In this document: piece by piece, positions 1 to 6,348 of the stretch | Position numbering within the stretch: position 1 is the first letter of the stretch | Layout of the letters: the number at the start of each line of letters is the position of its first letter | Assembly (NCBI GenBank): GCA_003660555.1 | Contig: QMUK01000067.1 | Coordinates: forward strand, 1 to 6,348 | Length of the DNA stretch: 6,348 nucleotides | Reading direction: 5' to 3' | Origin: Thermococci archaeon | Lineage (GTDB): Archaea; Hadarchaeota; B88-G9 | The notes under the pieces: generated by a model | Told to the model about the DNA's origin: nothing | The model's input: only the letters and a program-made list of their open reading frames with translations | Databases searched by the model: none | Translations under genes and position numbers: made by a program

Positions 1-264
1 ATGGGCTATCTGAACCCAGAGAGGAAGTTCATAGATGCGATGTCAGAGAAGGTCTCTCTGGGAAGCGTTATACACTATCACTTCACAGCCCACAACAGGG
101 AAATGCCTAGGAAAATAAGTGAAATACTGGAGGAATTCAGAGGAAGTGGGTTAAAAACTGAGGTGCAATACCTTAGGAGTGTGAAGACCTATTCCCCTGG
201 GGTGAAGCATTACGCCCTAGACTTGGAGGTGGTGGGTTGGTCAAGATCAATGAGAGAGCAATAA
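1..264 (+). CDS. C-terminal part of a TYW2/Trm5-family tRNA-modifying enzyme (5' end outside the window)
   Basis: This is the last 87 residues of a class I methyltransferase-fold enzyme that modifies G37 or its wyosine derivatives in tRNA-Phe. Family features seen are MGYL at residues 1-4, the IHYHF strand at about 24-28, and the family-typical C-terminal strand VKTYSPGVKHYALDLEV at about 61-77. The ATG at base 1 is almost certainly internal, because MGYL normally sits deep in the Rossmann domain and the SAM-binding motifs are missing. Trm5 usually has an NLP motif where this protein has GYL, which favours TYW2 (Taw2, the aminocarboxypropyl transferase of wyosine synthesis); this is inferred from remembered family motifs. 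The gene overlaps the start of aNAC by 28 bases, indicating one operon. Family membership is firm, the TYW2-versus-Trm5 choice less so. Confidence 0.82.
   Translation: MGYLNPERKFIDAMSEKVSLGSVIHYHFTAHNREMPRKISEILEEFRGSGLKTEVQYLRSVKTYSPGVKHYALDLEVVGWSRSMREQ
225..232 (+). promoter_or_regulatory. Shine-Dalgarno that sets a TTG start for aNAC
   Basis: GGAGGTGG lies inside the end of the upstream gene, with the TTG at 237 shortly downstream. It is a near-perfect complement to the archaeal 16S 3' end and supports the TTG rather than the next in-frame ATG at about 270. Confidence 0.7.
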
Positions 265-557
265 GAAAGATGCTCAAACAGATGAAAATGGAAGAAATAG
301 ATGCAGATGAAGTCATAATAAAGACTGGGGATAAGGAATTGGTAATAAGGAATCCCAGGGTTTCCTCCTTTGAGGTAATGGGCCAAAGGGCATTCCAAAT
401 AATTGGGGACGTAGAGGAGAGAACCGGAATAAGCGAAGAAGACGTACAACTAGTTATGGAGCAAGCAGGAGTAGACAGAGAAAGAGCAGAAAAGACTTTA
501 AGGGAATGTGGTGGAGACATTGCCTTGGCTATAGCTAAACTCAAGGGGATAGACTGA
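237..557 (+). CDS. nac: Nascent polypeptide-associated complex protein (aNAC)
   Basis: This ribosome-associated chaperone binds nascent chains near the exit tunnel; archaeal NAC is a homodimer related to eukaryotic alpha-NAC. The 106 residues show the usual layout. A short basic/methionine-rich N-terminus (IRKMLKQMKMEEIDADEVII, about 9-28) leads into the NAC beta-barrel (KELVIRNPRV, then FQIIGDVEER, to about 62). A C-terminal UBA domain follows (TGISEEDVQLVMEQAGVDRE, then GGDIALAIAKL, about 63-104). Length is normal for archaea. The start is TTG at 237, supported by the strong ribosome site just before it. Its stop overlaps the next ATG (TGATG, 555-559), so it is translationally coupled to the radical SAM gene. 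Confidence 0.95.
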   Translation: MVKINERAIRKMLKQMKMEEIDADEVIIKTGDKELVIRNPRVSSFEVMGQRAFQIIGDVEERTGISEEDVQLVMEQAGVDRERAEKTLRECGGDIALAIAKLKGID

Positions 558-1426
558 TGAGCATCTGTTCTCCGAAGAGAGTGAAGAGACTCCTGATTAG
601 AAAGGGACCAGTGGAGTATTCCCTTAATACTTACGAAGGATGTGAGCACTCCTGCCCGTTTTGTTTTTCCAGGAGAGAAGATGAAAAGATCTTCGGGAAA
701 GTAAATGCTCATTTAATCCTCAGAAATGAATTAAAAGCTAGTAAAAGAGGGTTCATAACTTTGAATACCTCTTCGGATCCATACCAACCTTGCGAGGAGG
801 AGTTGAAAATAACCAGAAGAGTACTAGAAGTAATGAGAGACTATAGATTCTCCTGTCACGTCATGACCAAATCCGACCTAGTGGTCAGGGATTTGGAAGT
901 CCTGAGAGAAATTAGCGAGAGAGGATCCAATTGCTTCGTCTCTTTCTCTCTGATCTCTCTGGAAGATGGTTTGGAAGGATCTTCTCCGAGTCCGAAGAGG
1001 AGGATCAGAGCATTGGAGAAAGTCTCGTCTCATGGAATAAAAACTGGTGTATTGCTGATGCCAATTCTCCCATTCATAACAGATGATCCTGAGGAAATAG
1101 AGGAATTGCTGCACCTAGTAAAGGAGAAAGGGGGTTCTTATGCTATTCCAGGGATTCTAATACTCAGAGAGCCTGAAAAAAGGAGGTTCTTCTATTTCCT
1201 GTCTGAGGAGTATCCGGAACTAGTTGGAATTTACTCTGAAATGTACAGGGGGAGTTCTCCTTCAAGGAGATACCTATCCGAACTAGAGGAGAGGCTGAGG
1301 GAAACATTTAATAGAGTTGGGATTTCGGACAGGCTACCACTGGGTGTTCCCGTTGGAGGAAGCGCTTCCACTAGTCAAGAAGAAGGGAGGAGGATACAGG
1401 AAAGGAAAGGGTTTCAGCCTATCTGA
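557..1426 (+). CDS. SplB-like radical SAM protein
   Basis: The 289-residue protein has a radical SAM [4Fe-4S] motif, Cys29-x3-Cys33-x2-Cys36, within YEGCEHSCPFCFSR. It is followed by LNTSSDPYQPCEE (about 69-81), the SDPYQP signature of the SplB-like COG1533 group, and by VSFSLISLEDGLE (about 128-140) in the barrel. Members cleave SAM to a 5'-deoxyadenosyl radical. The substrate of this non-spore archaeal branch is not known to me, and spore photoproduct lyase activity should not be assumed. The start ATG overlaps the aNAC stop. The recognisable domain ends near ISDRLPLGVPV (residues about 256-266); the remaining C-terminus is encoded by DNA that also encodes the start of eL13 in another frame, so it may not be conserved. 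Confidence 0.88.
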   Translation: MSICSPKRVKRLLIRKGPVEYSLNTYEGCEHSCPFCFSRREDEKIFGKVNAHLILRNELKASKRGFITLNTSSDPYQPCEEELKITRRVLEVMRDYRFSCHVMTKSDLVVRDLEVLREISERGSNCFVSFSLISLEDGLEGSSPSPKRRIRALEKVSSHGIKTGVLLMPILPFITDDPEEIEELLHLVKEKGGSYAIPGILILREPEKRRFFYFLSEEYPELVGIYSEMYRGSSPSRRYLSELEERLRETFNRVGISDRLPLGVPVGGSASTSQEEGRRIQERKGFQPI

Positions 1427-1577
1427 AATAAGGGAAGCTGGAATCTCAGTGGAAGAAGCTGAGAGACTTGGCCTTAGGATAGACAGGAGAAGGAAAAGCA
1501 AGTTAGAGGTTAACGTCCTGACGATAAAGGAGGTGGTAAGCAATGAGGATAAGTCCCGAGTACAGAACGTGTCCTAA
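1353..1577 (+). CDS. rpl13e: Large-subunit ribosomal protein eL13
   Basis: This is the short archaeal form of a 50S subunit protein shared with eukaryotes. The signature is GKGFSLSEIREAGISVEEA (about 18-36), followed by RLGLRIDRRRKS and a terminal NVLTIKEVV, closely matching the archaeal eL13 pattern of basic lead-in, GFSL-E-EAG helix and LGI-VD-RRR turn. With the TTG at 1353, the product is 74 residues and has GGTG at 1343-1346 as a possible ribosome site. An in-frame TTG at 1317 (86 residues) and GTG at 1344 are alternatives, so the start is uncertain. It overlaps the end of the radical SAM gene by 74 bases or more, and the zinc-ribbon start by 35 bases. The identity is firm. Confidence 0.85.
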   Translation: MEEALPLVKKKGGGYRKGKGFSLSEIREAGISVEEAERLGLRIDRRRKSKLEVNVLTIKEVVSNEDKSRVQNVS

Positions 1578-1671
1578 ATGCGGGAAGGTCTCTTTCTTCG
1601 TCCTCAAGGGAAAGGAGGTGGAGTTCTCCTGTGACTGCGGATACAAAAGAGTCTATGAGATTCAGAGGTGA
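1543..1671 (+). CDS. 42-residue zinc-ribbon protein
   Basis: This short gene reads MRISPEYRTCPKCGKV and ends CGYKRVYEIQR. Four cysteines, at residues 10, 13, 30 and 32 (CPKC and CDC), are spaced as a minimal treble-clef or zinc-ribbon site, with a beta-hairpin (FFVLKGKEVEFSC) between them. The ATG at 1543 has an excellent GGAGGTGG site at 1529-1536. It sits between eL13 and ribK, overlapping eL13 by 35 bases and ribK by up to 17. The function is unknown; RNA or ribosome binding is a guess based only on the fold type and neighbours. The strong ribosome site and clean Cys pattern argue that it is real despite its size. Confidence 0.75.
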   Translation: MRISPEYRTCPKCGKVSFFVLKGKEVEFSCDCGYKRVYEIQR

Positions 1672-2001
1672 GATCAAGAGGGGATTCGGGAGAGCTTCTT
1701 TCTTCCTTTCCTTGGAGTACTACAAAAAAGCAATAAGGGAAAAAGTGGGCTTTGAGCCCTATCCTGGAACAATAAATGTTAAGGTCTCTCCTGGAGTAAA
1801 GGAAAAGGTTTTGAAGTCCTCAAAACTTATAAAAGGTACTGGAAAGCTAGGTCCAATTAGAATAGCTCTCGGACACTCCATGGGGAGGAGATGCGCCGTC
1901 ATAATACCCGAGAGAAGTGAGCACGGAGAGGAAATAATAGAGGTGATCTTCCCTGAGGAAGTAAAGGGGATTGGCTCCGAGATAGAGGTAGAGGTGATTC
2001 C

Positions 2002-2029
<28 letters not shown>
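1655..2029 (+). CDS. ribK: CTP-dependent riboflavin kinase (archaeal type)
   Basis: The enzyme phosphorylates riboflavin to FMN, using CTP rather than ATP in characterised archaeal members. The 124-residue protein has the RibK cradle-loop barrel features: GEIKRGFGRASFFLSLEYY (about 5-23), the family signature PYPGTINVKV (about 35-44), a polar central strand GKLGPIRIALGHSMGRRCAV, and an acidic C-terminal strand ending EIEVEVIPWEE. The ATG at 1655 places the first strand immediately after the start, as in compact family members. A GTG at 1631, 10 bases after AAAGGAGGTG, would add eight residues and is a real alternative. It overlaps ribB by 28 bases. Its position directly before ribB and ribC confirms a flavin role. 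Confidence 0.9.
1991..1996 (+). promoter_or_regulatory. Shine-Dalgarno that sets the TTG start of ribB
   Basis: GAGGTG (running on as GAGGTGATT) lies five bases before the TTG at 2002, inside the 3' end of ribK. It matches the extended archaeal anti-SD and explains the TTG start. Confidence 0.6.
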
Positions 2030-3166
<1,137 letters not shown>

Positions 3167-3184: not shown

Positions 3185-4150
3185 ATGGTGATTGCTTCAG
3201 TTCTAAGTTCTGAGAGGGTCCTTCTCCTCTCGAAAAAGAGTGTAAGTGAGTCAAACGCGTCCAGATGGGAAATTCTAGAGTATTCTGAGATCTCCATATT
3301 CAGAGGTGAGAAAATAGAAATAGACACGAGAGTATGGCTTTACCCTCTAGAGTTAGTGGCGAGGAATTACAACAAGAGGACCATAAAGCTCTACTTGCAT
3401 TACAACGAGGAATTCCTGAAATTCTCTAGGAAGAATCCCCATCAGATGTCTAAAGAGGAGAGGGACAACCTCTATTACCTAGTGAAGAGAGATTGCTCTG
3501 CTTCTATGCTAAACGTAGCGATAAATGCCCTGAAGTTCTACTACGGCGAAATCTTAAAGAAAAAGCTTGCTTATGAAATTATTAGACCAAAGAGAGGTAA
3601 AAGTTGCCCGTTGTTTTAACTCAAAAGGAAGTTTAAGATCCTTTCGTCCACTAACGAAGTTAAACACGGACTCATTTTAATGTTCATGTATTCCTCAGGA
3701 TTAAGTTGGTGAAGTAGTGAAGTTCAGGATCGATGACATCGATACATAGAGAGGAAGTTGATTGAAGTAAAGGGAAACAAGGACCGATACACAATCCCTT
3801 CTGAAATCACATTGAAGACTCTCATGGAATAAGTTGAGGAATACAAGCCGAGAGAATGACTGTTCCCTGGACAAAGGGAGAGGAGGCACATCACTACGAG
3901 AACTGTACAGAATCCTTGAAAGCAGTGCCGACATGAGATATGTTCAAAAGCTAGTTGACATGAAAACTTAAAAACAACGGAGATATATACTCACGTTGCA
4001 ATGAGGGATTTGAGGAAGATGAAAAGCCCATTGGATTTGATGATCATGGGGGTGAAAATTTTCATATACGCAGTAGAGCCTAGGAATAATGTGAAGTTCA
4101 CATATAATCCCAAACCAGAACGGAATGTGAACTTCGTATACTTGGAGTAG
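3185..4150 (+). pseudogene. xerA: Decayed XerA-like tyrosine recombinase
   Basis: The first frame (3185-3619) encodes the N-terminal core-binding domain (NYNKRTIKLYLHYNEEFLKF to NALKFYYGEILKKK). After that the Xer protein continues only by changing frame. A lost base near 3600 restores KLPVVLTQKEV; a shift at 3634 gives KILSSTNEVKHGLILMFMY; a shift near 3704 gives VGEVVKFRIDDID, destroying the GLRxGE catalytic Arg codon; and a shift near 3745 gives RKLIEVKGNKDRYTIPSE. Two nonsense codons follow (TAA 3830, TGA 3857) within VEEYKPRE-LFPGQ. After RTVQN (about 3912) the HxLRHxxA box is missing, then ADMRYVQKL and, in another frame, KTTEIYTHV with the nucleophilic Tyr and MRDLRKMKSPLD survive. The spacing fits Xer and shows no IntI-specific insertion. 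The first roughly 45 residues are unrecognised. The 3' limit is uncertain: Xer similarity ends near 4040, while the last frame is open to 4150. Confidence 0.9.
4093..4135. repeat. Perfect 11-bp inverted repeat (possible degenerate att hairpin)
   Basis: GAAGTTCACAT (4093-4103) and its exact complement ATGTGAACTTC (4125-4135) flank a 21-base loop. Outside the arms are GCCTAGG on the left (4078-4084) and GTAGGTG on the right (4147-4153), faintly like an attC R''/R' pair. The left arm is itself part of a near-palindrome, ATGTGAAGTTCACAT (4089-4103). It could be a decayed attC or attI, or an operator ahead of the next gene. The inverted repeat is certain; its role is not. Confidence 0.5.
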
Positions 4151-4159
4151 GTGACATGC
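4147..4159 (+). other. Candidate 5' core site (R'-like) of cassette 1
   Basis: GTAGGTGACATGC matches GTTAGGCGACATGC, the reverse complement of the outer arm of attC1 (4898-4911), at 12 of 13 positions after allowing one missing T. It also resembles the start of cassette 3 (GTTAAGCGACATGC, 6186-6199). It would mark where the first cassette joins the chromosome. The lost T damages the GTT triplet, so this junction may no longer recombine. Confidence 0.5.
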
Positions 4160-4980
4160 GGAGAATGGAGGTTAAGTTATGGAGAAGGCTGTTAATAAAA
4201 TGAAAAGTGAGGAAATTTATTTGCATGTGTTCATAGTAGAATCATCCTCATCCAGTGACTTTCTTGCAAAAAGATACGAAGGCGAAGTACTCCATAAATT
4301 CTTAATATGGAGGAGAATAAGATCATCTCACTATTTTGCAATAGATAAGGATTCATTCAACCGAGCAATTATTGGTCTCATAGACGATGCAATTGGAGAA
4401 GGGTTTAAGGTGGCAGGATTAAGTATTTTAAATAACAAGCCGATTCCAGCAATCCTGCCTATCATTCACATCAGCGCCTATGGAAACGAGAAAGGAATAT
4501 TCTAACAAATGGAGAGTTAGTGACTTGGGAAGACCTTGGAAATTTGCTATCTAGGCTGAATGAAACATTTAGATGGATTATATTGTCCATCTCTGCATGC
4601 AAAGGTTGGAATGCCATAAAAATGTTATTCGAGTCTAAAGATATTCCATTTAACGTCCTAATTTCAAATAAAGGAGAACCAACATGGCAGGAGACACTAA
4701 TTAGTTTTTTTCCGTTATATATCATCAGCTCGCAGAAGAATTGGATTTCTCAAAAGCGATTAATGCAGCCAGATCTGTGAGTGGTAACAATGATTTTGAA
4801 TATTTATCCATTCCAGAAATAAAAGAATTCATACAAAAACTAGCTGATGAATTGGTTAAGTACTTTGTACAACCTAATTAAGGAGAGAATAAAATGAGCA
4901 TGTCGCCTAACAGCGGACATATGGCTACGCTTCGCTCCACCCAAATTTCCTTATGGAAAACTTCATATGCCCGCAAATCG
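4148..4980 (+). mobile_element. Integron-type gene cassette 1 (CHAT-like gene plus most of attC1)
   Basis: The proposed cassette runs from the decayed core site at 4147 to the recombination point in the GTT of attC1. It contains one open frame family (4179-4881, broken) and its own R'', L'' and L' boxes. The reverse complement of the DNA around R'' (GCATGTCGCCTAAC, 4898-4911) nearly matches the proposed start, as expected of a formerly circular cassette. The left boundary is less secure than the right. Confidence 0.5.
4179..4881 (+). pseudogene. CHAT/caspase-fold-like protein interrupted by two frameshifts
   Basis: Three consecutive frames give one protein of about 230 residues. Frame 1 (4179-4505) ends in IIHISAYGNEKGIF. 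One missing base near 4501 restores LTNGELVTWEDLGNLL, continuing to IILSISACKGWNAIK and ISNKGEPTWQETLISF. A second slip in a seven-T run (4705-4711) restores VIYHQLAEELDFSKAINAAR and continues to FVQPN, stopping at 4879-4881. The pattern H-x3-[H]G-N-x-x-G, LTNG...W..L, then S-x-C, resembles a widespread bacterial family with a CHAT/clostripain-caspase-like arrangement; this is recalled from family patterns. The Cys is present, but the expected His before Gly is Tyr (TAT, 4479-4481), one base from a His codon. GGAGG at 4167-4171 supports the ATG at 4179. Sequencing error is an alternative for each frameshift, especially the T run. Confidence 0.72.
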
Positions 4981-4986
4981 TTATAC
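4905..4986 (+). other. attC1 integron-type cassette recombination site
   Basis: The boxes are in order R'' GCCTAAC (4905-4911, fits RYYYAAC), L'' GCGGACATATG (4913-4923), a loop of about 40 bases containing GCTACGCTTCGCTC and a small TTTCC/GGAAA stem (4946-4959), L' CATATGCCCGC (4964-4974), an AAATC spacer, and R' GTTATAC (4980-4986). L'' and L' pair at 10 of 11 positions. The unequal spacers (1 versus 5 bases) give the unpaired central spacer expected of a folded attC. Pairing extends outward with GCATG (4898-4902) and CATGC (4989-4993). R' departs from GTTRRRY at one position. It sits right after the stop of one gene and before the next, as cassette sites do. Confidence 0.82.
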
Positions 4987-5008
4987 GCCATGCTTTTAGA
5001 TCAAGAAT

Positions 5009-5016
5009 AAGGAGGT
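5009..5016 (+). promoter_or_regulatory. Ribosome site for the cassette 2 gene
   Basis: AAGGAGGT ends six bases before the GTG at 5023 and decides this start. The cassette therefore supplies its own translation signal within its first 40 bases. Confidence 0.65.
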
Positions 5017-5022
5017 TAGAAA

Positions 5023-6096
5023 GTGAAAGATGTATTAAATTGCATTAAAAAATATGTAGAAATTACTGAAGATGAAAAATTTATATTACATTGGAAAAAA
5101 CTGTCTGAGCGATTACTGAAAGGAATACTGGAAAGCTATATACGCCGTGAACCAGAGACAGTTAGAATTATTGAAAACATTATAAATAACATCGGGCAGT
5201 TCAATACAGAAGAACATCATAGATTCAATATTTCTACTAATTCGATTTTTATTCATGGAAATAAATCTCAGGTAGAATTTGAATATTATGGGAAAAGCAC
5301 CAAAAGAGAGCTTGGAGATATTATTTTTATCCTATCGGTCGTTTATAATGGTAGAAAGTATTTTGAAAAAATGACTATTAACCAAATAAAAAAATCAAGA
5401 AACGTTTCATGGAATTTCAATACCGATAGTGCTAGAGAGCAACTTTATTTACTTTCAAGATTTCCAGCATTTAAAGGTGCCAAAAATTCCATAATACCAA
5501 AAAAGGACTACAACCTCCCAAATTACTCTGGATGTCTAGGTTCTCATGGATTACTTTATTATCCGGGCGATTTTGCTTTAATCAGTTCAAAACAGTTGGA
5601 CGTAATTTTATCAGGAAAAAATAAGCTAGAATTAGCAAATTTGGTATTGAGTATCGTCCCCAATAACCCCTGCCTTTGTCTCCACATAGATTTTGAAGAG
5701 TGTTTTTACCTTTTACATAAGTTGATCCACTTTTATCCTCGATGTCTCAGATACTTTCCTTTTATATGCAATTTACCAATATTAGGAAATAGTTGCATAT
5801 CATATAATGCATATGATTTTTCAGACAAGTACTTGAGAGGAGTTATAGGAGAATTAATATACGCTAAAGGTTTAGGGTACAATCACCAGGCCTTCCAATT
5901 TTTGATGGATCTGCTTGAATCAATCGAAAGAAAAGGAGGAAAATATAAGAGTTTCGTCCAAAACTTTAGAAAATTCAACTATAATCCAATTGGATATGGG
6001 AAAGACAAGATTGATAAAAAAGATTACGAGTTTGATAGAGATGGAGGAGGATTAGGTATAACCCATACAATAATAGATTTGAGGGAAGGTAAATGA
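5023..6096 (+). CDS. Cassette-encoded protein of unknown function, possible PD-(D/E)XK-like nuclease
   Basis: The 357-residue product begins at GTG after a strong ribosome site and is uninterrupted, unlike its neighbour. I do not recognise a named family. Residues about 94-130 (KRELGDIIFILSVV, then MTINQIKKSRNVSW) have the layout strand-E96-x2-D99-strand-loop-strand-Q121-x-K123. This resembles the D...QxK variant of the PD-(D/E)XK fold used by Mrr-like restriction enzymes. Next comes REQLYLLSRFPAF (138-150), a helix-P-F segment, then a Cys/Tyr/Phe-rich middle (LCLHIDFEECFYLLHKLIHF, about 216-236) and a charged tail with DRDGGGLGITHTI. No signal peptide or clear membrane helix is seen. Codon use is AT-rich with many AAA, ATA and AAT codons, suggesting a foreign origin. 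A defence or DNA-processing role is inference from the motif and cassette context. Confidence 0.75.
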   Translation: MKDVLNCIKKYVEITEDEKFILHWKKLSERLLKGILESYIRREPETVRIIENIINNIGQFNTEEHHRFNISTNSIFIHGNKSQVEFEYYGKSTKRELGDIIFILSVVYNGRKYFEKMTINQIKKSRNVSWNFNTDSAREQLYLLSRFPAFKGAKNSIIPKKDYNLPNYSGCLGSHGLLYYPGDFALISSKQLDVILSGKNKLELANLVLSIVPNNPCLCLHIDFEECFYLLHKLIHFYPRCLRYFPFICNLPILGNSCISYNAYDFSDKYLRGVIGELIYAKGLGYNHQAFQFLMDLLESIERKGGKYKSFVQNFRKFNYNPIGYGKDKIDKKDYEFDRDGGGLGITHTIIDLREGK

Positions 6097-6108
6097 TAAT
6101 GGCAATAG

Positions 6109-6192
6109 CGTATACAAGCGGGTATCTGGCTTCGCTATGCTTCGCTCAAATCCTCGCTTCGCAGGATCTCAGATACGCTCGGAACGTTAAGC
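6109..6192 (+). other. attC2 integron-type cassette recombination site
   Basis: R'' CGTATAC (6109-6115, one A short of a GTATAAC form), L'' AGCGGGTATCTG (6117-6128), a loop with two GCTTCGCT copies and an inner ATCCT/AGGAT stem, L' CAGATACGCT (6170-6179), spacer CGGAAC, and R' GTTAAGC (6186-6192, fits GTTRRRY). L'' pairs with L' over ten bases, with two extra G bases on the L'' side; such extrahelical bases are characteristic of attC folding and strand choice. It starts 12 bases after the cassette 2 stop. It shares the GCTTCGCT loop words with attC1 though the rest differs, as is usual for attC sites of different cassettes. Confidence 0.78.
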
Positions 6193-6247
6193 GACATGCA
6201 GGAAAAACATAAATGGATTCCCAGTATCTAAATAAATGGTGGAAATT

Positions 6248-6348
6248 ATGAAAGCAAAAGAAGCGATTGAGGAATTCAAAAGGGAGATCAAAAAGCTGTA
6301 TGGTAACAGATTGAAGCATATTATACTCTATGGCTCTTATGCGAGAGG
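6248..6348 (+). CDS. Minimal nucleotidyltransferase (MNT), N-terminal part, cut by the window end
   Basis: Thirty-three complete residues are visible, starting MKAKEAIEEFKREIKKLYG and reaching IILYGSYARG. The helix followed by a strand and GS-x-A-R-G is the opening motif of small DNA-polymerase-beta-type nucleotidyltransferases. The downstream D-x-D is outside the window. Many such proteins are the antitoxin half of HEPN-MNT toxin-antitoxin pairs, and toxin-antitoxin genes are common integron cargo; whether a HEPN gene follows cannot be seen. GGTGG at 6238-6242 supports the ATG at 6248. It is the first gene of cassette 3, which begins at TTAAGCGACATGC (6187). Confidence 0.8.
   Translation, partial: MKAKEAIEEFKREIKKLYGNRLKHIILYGSYAR

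Follow-up and report, generated by a model that had tools for sequence, protein, structure and literature searches.

The DNA analyzed in the current work, hereafter the window, is a stretch of 6,348 bp which represents an entire contig (C81) of a 1.295-Mb archaeal genome assembled in 150 contigs (completeness 91%, contamination 0.6%). From left to right, the G+C content of this contig changes from approximately 0.47 to approximately 0.32. The features recognized in the window are the following (R2 being a covariance model described below):

1-3166 (+): archaeal chromosomal genes, recognized by Pfam matches
1-264 (+): end of a tRNA-methyltransferase gene (weak Pfam match, under the cut-off)
237-557 (+): NAC (Pfam)
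557-1426 (+): radical SAM (Pfam)
1631-2029 (+): CTP-dependent riboflavin kinase (Pfam)
2002-2718 (+): RibB (Pfam)
2693-3166 (+): DMRL-synthase-family protein (Pfam)
3290-4045 (+): putative integron integrase pseudogene, insert-less and XerA-like, in a broken ORF running from 3185
4062-4147 (+): attI-like site, with palindromes at 4089-4103 and 4124-4140, then ...TTGGAG|T
4148-4980 (+): cassette 1, with ORFs 4179-4505 (108 aa) and 4520-4780 (86 aa)
4898-4911 (+): attC 1 R'', GCATGTCGCCTAAC
4901-4994 (+): attC 1, R2 85.3 bits, E 1.5e-18, bottom-strand fold z -4.0
4980-4993 (+): attC 1 R', GTTATACGCCATGC
4981-6186 (+): cassette 2, with ORF 5023-6096 (357 aa), no known family
6106-6200 (+): attC 2, R2 54.2 bits, E 2.5e-10
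6108-6115 (+): attC 2 R'', GCGTATAC, one A short
6186-6199 (+): attC 2 R', GTTAAGCGACATGC
6187-6348 (+): cassette 3, truncated at the right edge of the contig, with an ORF from 6248

The protein encoded by 2693-3166 is present in 25 of the 26 genomes searched (its own included), with an identity of 64-73% in relatives of the same phylum, where its homologue adjoins a second lumazine-synthase-like gene (as read). The counterpart of this second gene in the present genome is located on another contig (C17), and therefore no interruption of an operon is claimed, the riboflavin operon having been dropped as a candidate insertion target.

attC sites and cassettes

Considering that a first heuristic attC scorer gave a high background in G+C-rich plasmids, covariance models were adopted. 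Model R1 was built only from the sites of the window and of a 'Candidatus Altarchaeum' array (see below), and model R2 was built, in order to avoid circularity, from 17 sites of other genomes with no window sequence among them, the E-values of the window sites being calculated for a search space comprising the whole genome. A previous reading of this DNA from its letters alone (the sequence-only reading) had described three same-strand segments split by two attC-like sites, and had proposed an attC covariance model as a check; with our own models both sites were recovered, scoring 85.3 and 54.2 bits with the held-out R2. An Rfam scan of the window at gathering level produced no match. The R-end motif GTTANRCGMCATGC, allowing at most one mismatch, occurs three times in the genome, each time at an R box of the window, and its reversed control occurs nowhere in the genome. 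The L stem of attC 1 comprises 11 pairs, and its bottom strand folds with a z of -4.0, with 1 of 200 shuffles being equally stable. As it stands, attC 2 folds no better than shuffles (z = -0.4); when joined to the R' end of its own cassette the R stem is formed (z = -1.2, 26 of 200 shuffles equally stable).

The sites detected between genes across the genomes analyzed are hairpins of 73-141 nt with covarying stems. In an alignment of 130 sites fitted to the structure, 85.5% of the stem cells are paired, as compared to 66.4% in shuffled sequences, with 490 compensatory cells, and slid registers give 29-39%; when MAFFT was applied to 17 sites with no structural information, the values were 89.8% versus 74.2% paired. 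Paired R and L boxes were found around a G|TT core, the AAC...GTT core being present in 102 of the 130 sites, and the strict R boxes RYYYAAC and GTTRRRY in 38 of 130 R'' and 31 of 130 R' sequences, respectively. Within attC 1, R'' (GCCTAAC) matches the strict form and R' (GTTATAC) lies outside it.

A cassette that enters as a circle is the source of both its flanking ends, 3' for the preceding site and 5' for the following site, so that these two ends should match. Over 78 neighbouring pairs, the agreement between R' of a given site and R'' of the following one amounts to 4.01 of 5 variable positions, the controls being 2.96 of 5 within a site and 2.46 of 5 in the wrong direction, and none of 10,000 permutations, whether across or within arrays, matched the observed sum. 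Such matching of R ends between sites is the mark of circular cassettes. In the window, the R' of attC 1 pairs with the R'' of attC 2 at 5 of 5 tested positions (the two ends of cassette 2), and the left end of cassette 1, T-AGGTGACATGC, corresponds to the R'' of attC 1 except for one missing and one altered base. The array is composed of single-gene cassettes in one orientation, with ends that come from one circular unit. Neither the 108-aa ORF of cassette 1 nor the 357-aa ORF of cassette 2 retrieved a match in Pfam, NCBIfam or PADLOC. The ORF of cassette 3 is the start of an MNT-type nucleotidyltransferase, its match to PF01909 (33 aa, E 0.02) being weak because the ORF is truncated.

Further attC sites of the same genome are located on contigs C104, C130 and C86, the last with two of them, and C41 and C90 have weak ones (C104, C86, C130 and C41 being catalogued as loci L171-L174). 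On C41, two weak sites are followed at approximately 1.05 kb by a gene and, beyond it, by another one, which we take by eye to encode a thermosome subunit and a TFB-like protein, respectively; a second contig therefore has attC sites adjoining archaeal genes. The proposal that an archaeal chromosome carries a cassette array of the integron type is sustained by the sites themselves, by the matching of cassette ends, by the additional sites of the genome and by the adjoining archaeal genes of C81 and C41. The alternative offered in the sequence-only reading, i.e., that the window is the edge of a larger array, fits the position of the contig end inside cassette 3 and the sites on C86, C104, C130 and C41. 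Sites of this kind are present in eight genomes of the phylum, including the present one, and in one of these (G017) an integrase fragment lies upstream of two sites, as in the window.

Integrase pseudogene and attI-like site

The sequence-only reading had placed the array directly downstream of the archaeal operon; the array stands, and what had been missed are the two features interposed, namely the integrase pseudogene (3290-4045) and the attI-like site (4062-4147). A search for an integrase gene and for more attC sites, suggested at the same time, yielded a decayed integrase on this contig and sites on other contigs. The pseudogene contains seven in-frame stops and has lost the HxLRHSFATHLLESG region, which carries the catalytic HxxR, while retaining the C-terminus KTTEIYTHVAMRDLRKMKSPLDL. 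Over 294 aligned positions it is 41% identical to an intact 352-aa integrase from 'Candidatus Altarchaeum' CG2_30_32_3053 (G277; loci L063 and L094). It matches Phage_int_SAM_4, scores 53 bits with TIGR02249, which is under the cut-off, and its N-terminal fragment retrieved IntI4 (2a3v) as the only solved structure. The other genomes of the phylum that were searched gave no match to this integrase at E≤1e-5, and it was therefore probably acquired. The reading frames of its closest relatives (loci L080-L083, from Geoglobus, Archaeoglobus and other Archaeoglobi) are interrupted too, so that integrase decay is not unique to this genome; these four loci together have one weak downstream site.

In 21 of 25 loci, the R' end expected for the first cassette, matching at 8 of 9 positions or more, is located at most 200 nt from the stop of the integrase, as compared to 5.8 loci when each locus is given the expectation of another one and 1.05 loci for windows taken at random. 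An attI adjoining the integrase and including the R' end of the first cassette was found in these 21 loci and in the window. In loci read by eye, its layout consists of two imperfect palindromes, a core mostly with AAG or GAG as its last bases before TT, and then the cassette end; the attI-like site of the window has the layout of its relatives and ends at G4147. The exchange point is predicted from this layout to lie between 4147 and 4148, and the start given for the array in the sequence-only reading, 4147, coincides with the G at the G|TT junction where attI meets cassette 1.

These observations bear on the explanation that the contig is a chimera, in which assembly or binning has joined a cassette fragment to an archaeal operon. 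The fall in G+C content from approximately 0.47 to 0.32, the small size of the contig (6.3 kb, in a 150-contig assembly) and the lack of a homologous integrase in the other genomes of the phylum at E≤1e-5 would all agree with such an artefact, which we nevertheless consider very unlikely: the boundary between host and cassettes is the attI core rather than an arbitrary point, the composition of the integrase pseudogene lies between that of the host and that of the cassettes, C41 joins attC sites to archaeal genes as well, and the eight genomes of the phylum with such sites include G017, with its integrase fragment upstream of two of them.

Insert-less integrases and their arrays

Since the integrase of the window is dead, its role was deduced from its relatives. 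On the Altarchaeum contig the intact integrase is followed by cassettes whose attC sites belong to the sequence family of attC 1 of the window. A scan of public genomes for relatives of the integrase retrieved 80 loci, in archaea (Archaeoglobi, Methanosarcinales, Methanophagales and Altiarchaeales) and in bacteria (Nitrospirota, WOR-3 and candidate-phylum bacteria), and R1 detected sites in many of them. For the main integrase group, 51 sites of at least 35 bits were found in 277 kb downstream, all on the integrase strand, and three in 431 kb upstream, this attC family being present downstream in 27 of the 36 main-group loci for which at least 2 kb of downstream sequence is available. A smaller group of shorter integrases, mostly from Parcubacteria and Falkowbacteria, has its sites upstream and on the opposite strand, which is the classical divergent layout; loci arranged in this way include L141, L143, L153, L158, L176, L200 and L208, which come from Parcubacteria and Falkowbacteria as well as from some archaea. 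For other archaeal tyrosine recombinases, two site hits were obtained in 16 loci. A search starting from attC sites covered 20 archaeal arrays, 14 without a nearby recombinase and six with an adjacent one; for each of these six the insert-less query was the best and IntI for none, and four of the six are fragments.

The window copy is broken across the region of the IntI insert; the spacing between the motifs GKGxKDR and HxLRHSFA was measured on its relatives. It amounts to 58-59 residues in every measurable relative, and to 99-100 residues in IntI1 (for which the sequence used matches plasmid records at 100%) and in two phage IntIs (L072 and L073). By this measure the relatives are without the insert of approximately 40 residues that defines IntI, and the IntI-specific insert near patch III was not found in them. 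Three intact relatives score 237, 244 and 228 bits with recomb_XerA_Arch (NF040815; cut-off 220), placing them within that family, and intact relatives fall under the cut-off of the NCBIfam model integrase_gron. In a quick tree, the co-directional integrases constitute one group (support 100) and IntI another (99), and all attC-linked insert-less enzymes are contained in a 60-row group with a support of 82, with long branches present; joining IntI to the insert-less group was not rejected by an AU test (p 0.51). An intact XerA-like recombinase on contig C78 was considered as the integrase of the array and set aside, having a spacing of 51 residues and no R1 or R2 site on its contig.

The assignment to XerA invites the interpretation that the array consists of Xer/dif-type modules, as in pdif plasmids, i.e., double-stranded dif-like sites moved by XerA. 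Apart from the NF040815 scores, the attI arm before the core resembles the dif arm of P. abyssi, with 5.67 of 11 positions in agreement as compared to 3.30 in other registers (PMC2958812). The attC sites, however, are hairpins with covarying stems and not 28-bp inverted repeats, cassette ends match as in integrons, and the sites of an array point the same way with few exceptions, on account of which we regard Xer/dif modules as extremely unlikely. The insert-less integrases also differ from archaeal XerA in the extra N-terminal region of the co-directional group, in the C-terminal SPLD carried by most of them, and in the attC arrays that adjoin them, there being none at most of the other archaeal recombinases tested. 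The likeness of the attI and dif arms is suggestive, as a hint and no more, of an origin from Xer/dif.

In our judgement, the window very probably represents the left end of an archaeal integron which has decayed and whose integrase belongs to a XerA-like lineage without the insert. According to this explanation, a XerA-like recombinase encoded in the same direction as the array, presumably the one now decayed at 3290-4045, would have integrated cassettes, each a single-gene circle, at the attI that adjoins the 3' end of its own gene, with exchange at G|TT. Every cassette would have brought an attC of which one strand folds into a hairpin, recombination probably proceeding through the single-stranded bottom strand, and the attC sites that separate the genes would thus result from tandem insertion. 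The integrase gene would then have lost its catalytic region, the remaining array becoming fixed and its cassettes mobile only if another recombinase acts in trans.

The sequence-only reading had described the array as CALIN-like and devoid of its own integrase, a description at odds with the attI-like site and the decayed integrase now recognized, and with the position of the relatives just upstream of such arrays in 27 of 36 cases. A CALIN comprises at least two attC sites less than 4 kb apart with no integrase nearby; the attC sites of the window are 1.2 kb apart, but the attI-like site and the integrase pseudogene adjoin them, so that the array falls outside this definition. That the cassettes were delivered by an IntI-type integrase encoded elsewhere, the decayed Xer-like recombinase being an unrelated neighbour, is in our view unlikely. 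It is in keeping with the classification of most reported archaeal integrons as CALINs, IntI being recognized only through its specific domain, with the recombination of archaeal attCs by IntI1 in E. coli (PMC9668308), and with the 14 of 20 attC-first arrays that have no nearby recombinase. Against it stand the outcome for TIGR02249, which found nothing above cut-off in this genome and 60 other archaeal genomes, the strand- and position-specific link between the sites and insert-less integrases in many lineages, and the attI-like site with the end of the first cassette just past the integrase.

Archaeal cassette arrays as such had been noted as already reported, and this is borne out by the publication of archaeal integrons, mostly CALINs, from 75 MAGs (Ghaly et al. 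2022, PMC9668308). As in the window, those are attC arrays with single genes, and attI is located immediately downstream of the archaeal integrase gene; the integrases reported there are called IntI only when the IntI-specific domain is present, unlike those described here, which do not have it. Arrays such as that of the window would therefore count as CALINs, and the window array would still be filed as one under the domain rule of PMC9668308. What may be new is the linked integrase and attI, since the literature searched gave no report in which attC arrays are linked to integrases without the insert, bioRxiv and most subscription journals lying outside that search. IntI-type integrons (class 1, Vibrio) share with these arrays the cassettes, attC, attI, the G|TT core and a tyrosine recombinase, whereas here the 40-residue insert is missing, the integrase of the main group is co-directional with the array and attI consists of two palindromes; R1 did not recognize the attC family of the present arrays at class-1 loci. 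NF040815 itself is described as 'site-specific tyrosine recombinase/integron integrase'.

The insert-less integrases are an archaeal Xer-like family that is widespread in archaea and bacteria and uncounted by the usual integron searches, the IntI-specific domain being taken as diagnostic of integron integrases and as a requirement for the recombination of folded attC. We lean towards the view that this widespread lineage represents a second type of integron integrase, or the ancestral one, having an attI (two palindromes and a dif-like arm) and an attC family of its own, in which case many archaeal and candidate-phylum CALINs would be complete or decayed integrons overlooked on account of the IntI-domain criterion. 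Should the family perform the function of IntI, entire lineages would be underrepresented in integron surveys, an integrase could be assigned to many CALINs, and enzymes and sites already available would allow the derivation of integrons from Xer/dif recombination to be tested.

Several minor observations concern individual loci. In attI arms such as that at L116:10888-10922, the core TTCGGATATAA-ACGAG|TT resembles an archaeal dif site. Contig C90 (L007), which could be a contaminant, contains a second decayed array with a divergent layout, in which integrase pieces at 3361-4125 (+), including a recombinase fragment that retains HTLRHSFA, are accompanied by weak sites at 352-438, 1333-1413 and 2243-2314, all on the minus strand. 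The two sites of C86, which are similar, enclose two genes, one for a nucleotidyltransferase (PADLOC PDC-S09) and a second, small one resembling its HEPN partner, and cassette 1 of the Altarchaeum array (L063:2032-4423) apparently encodes a type II pair of methyltransferase and restriction enzyme.
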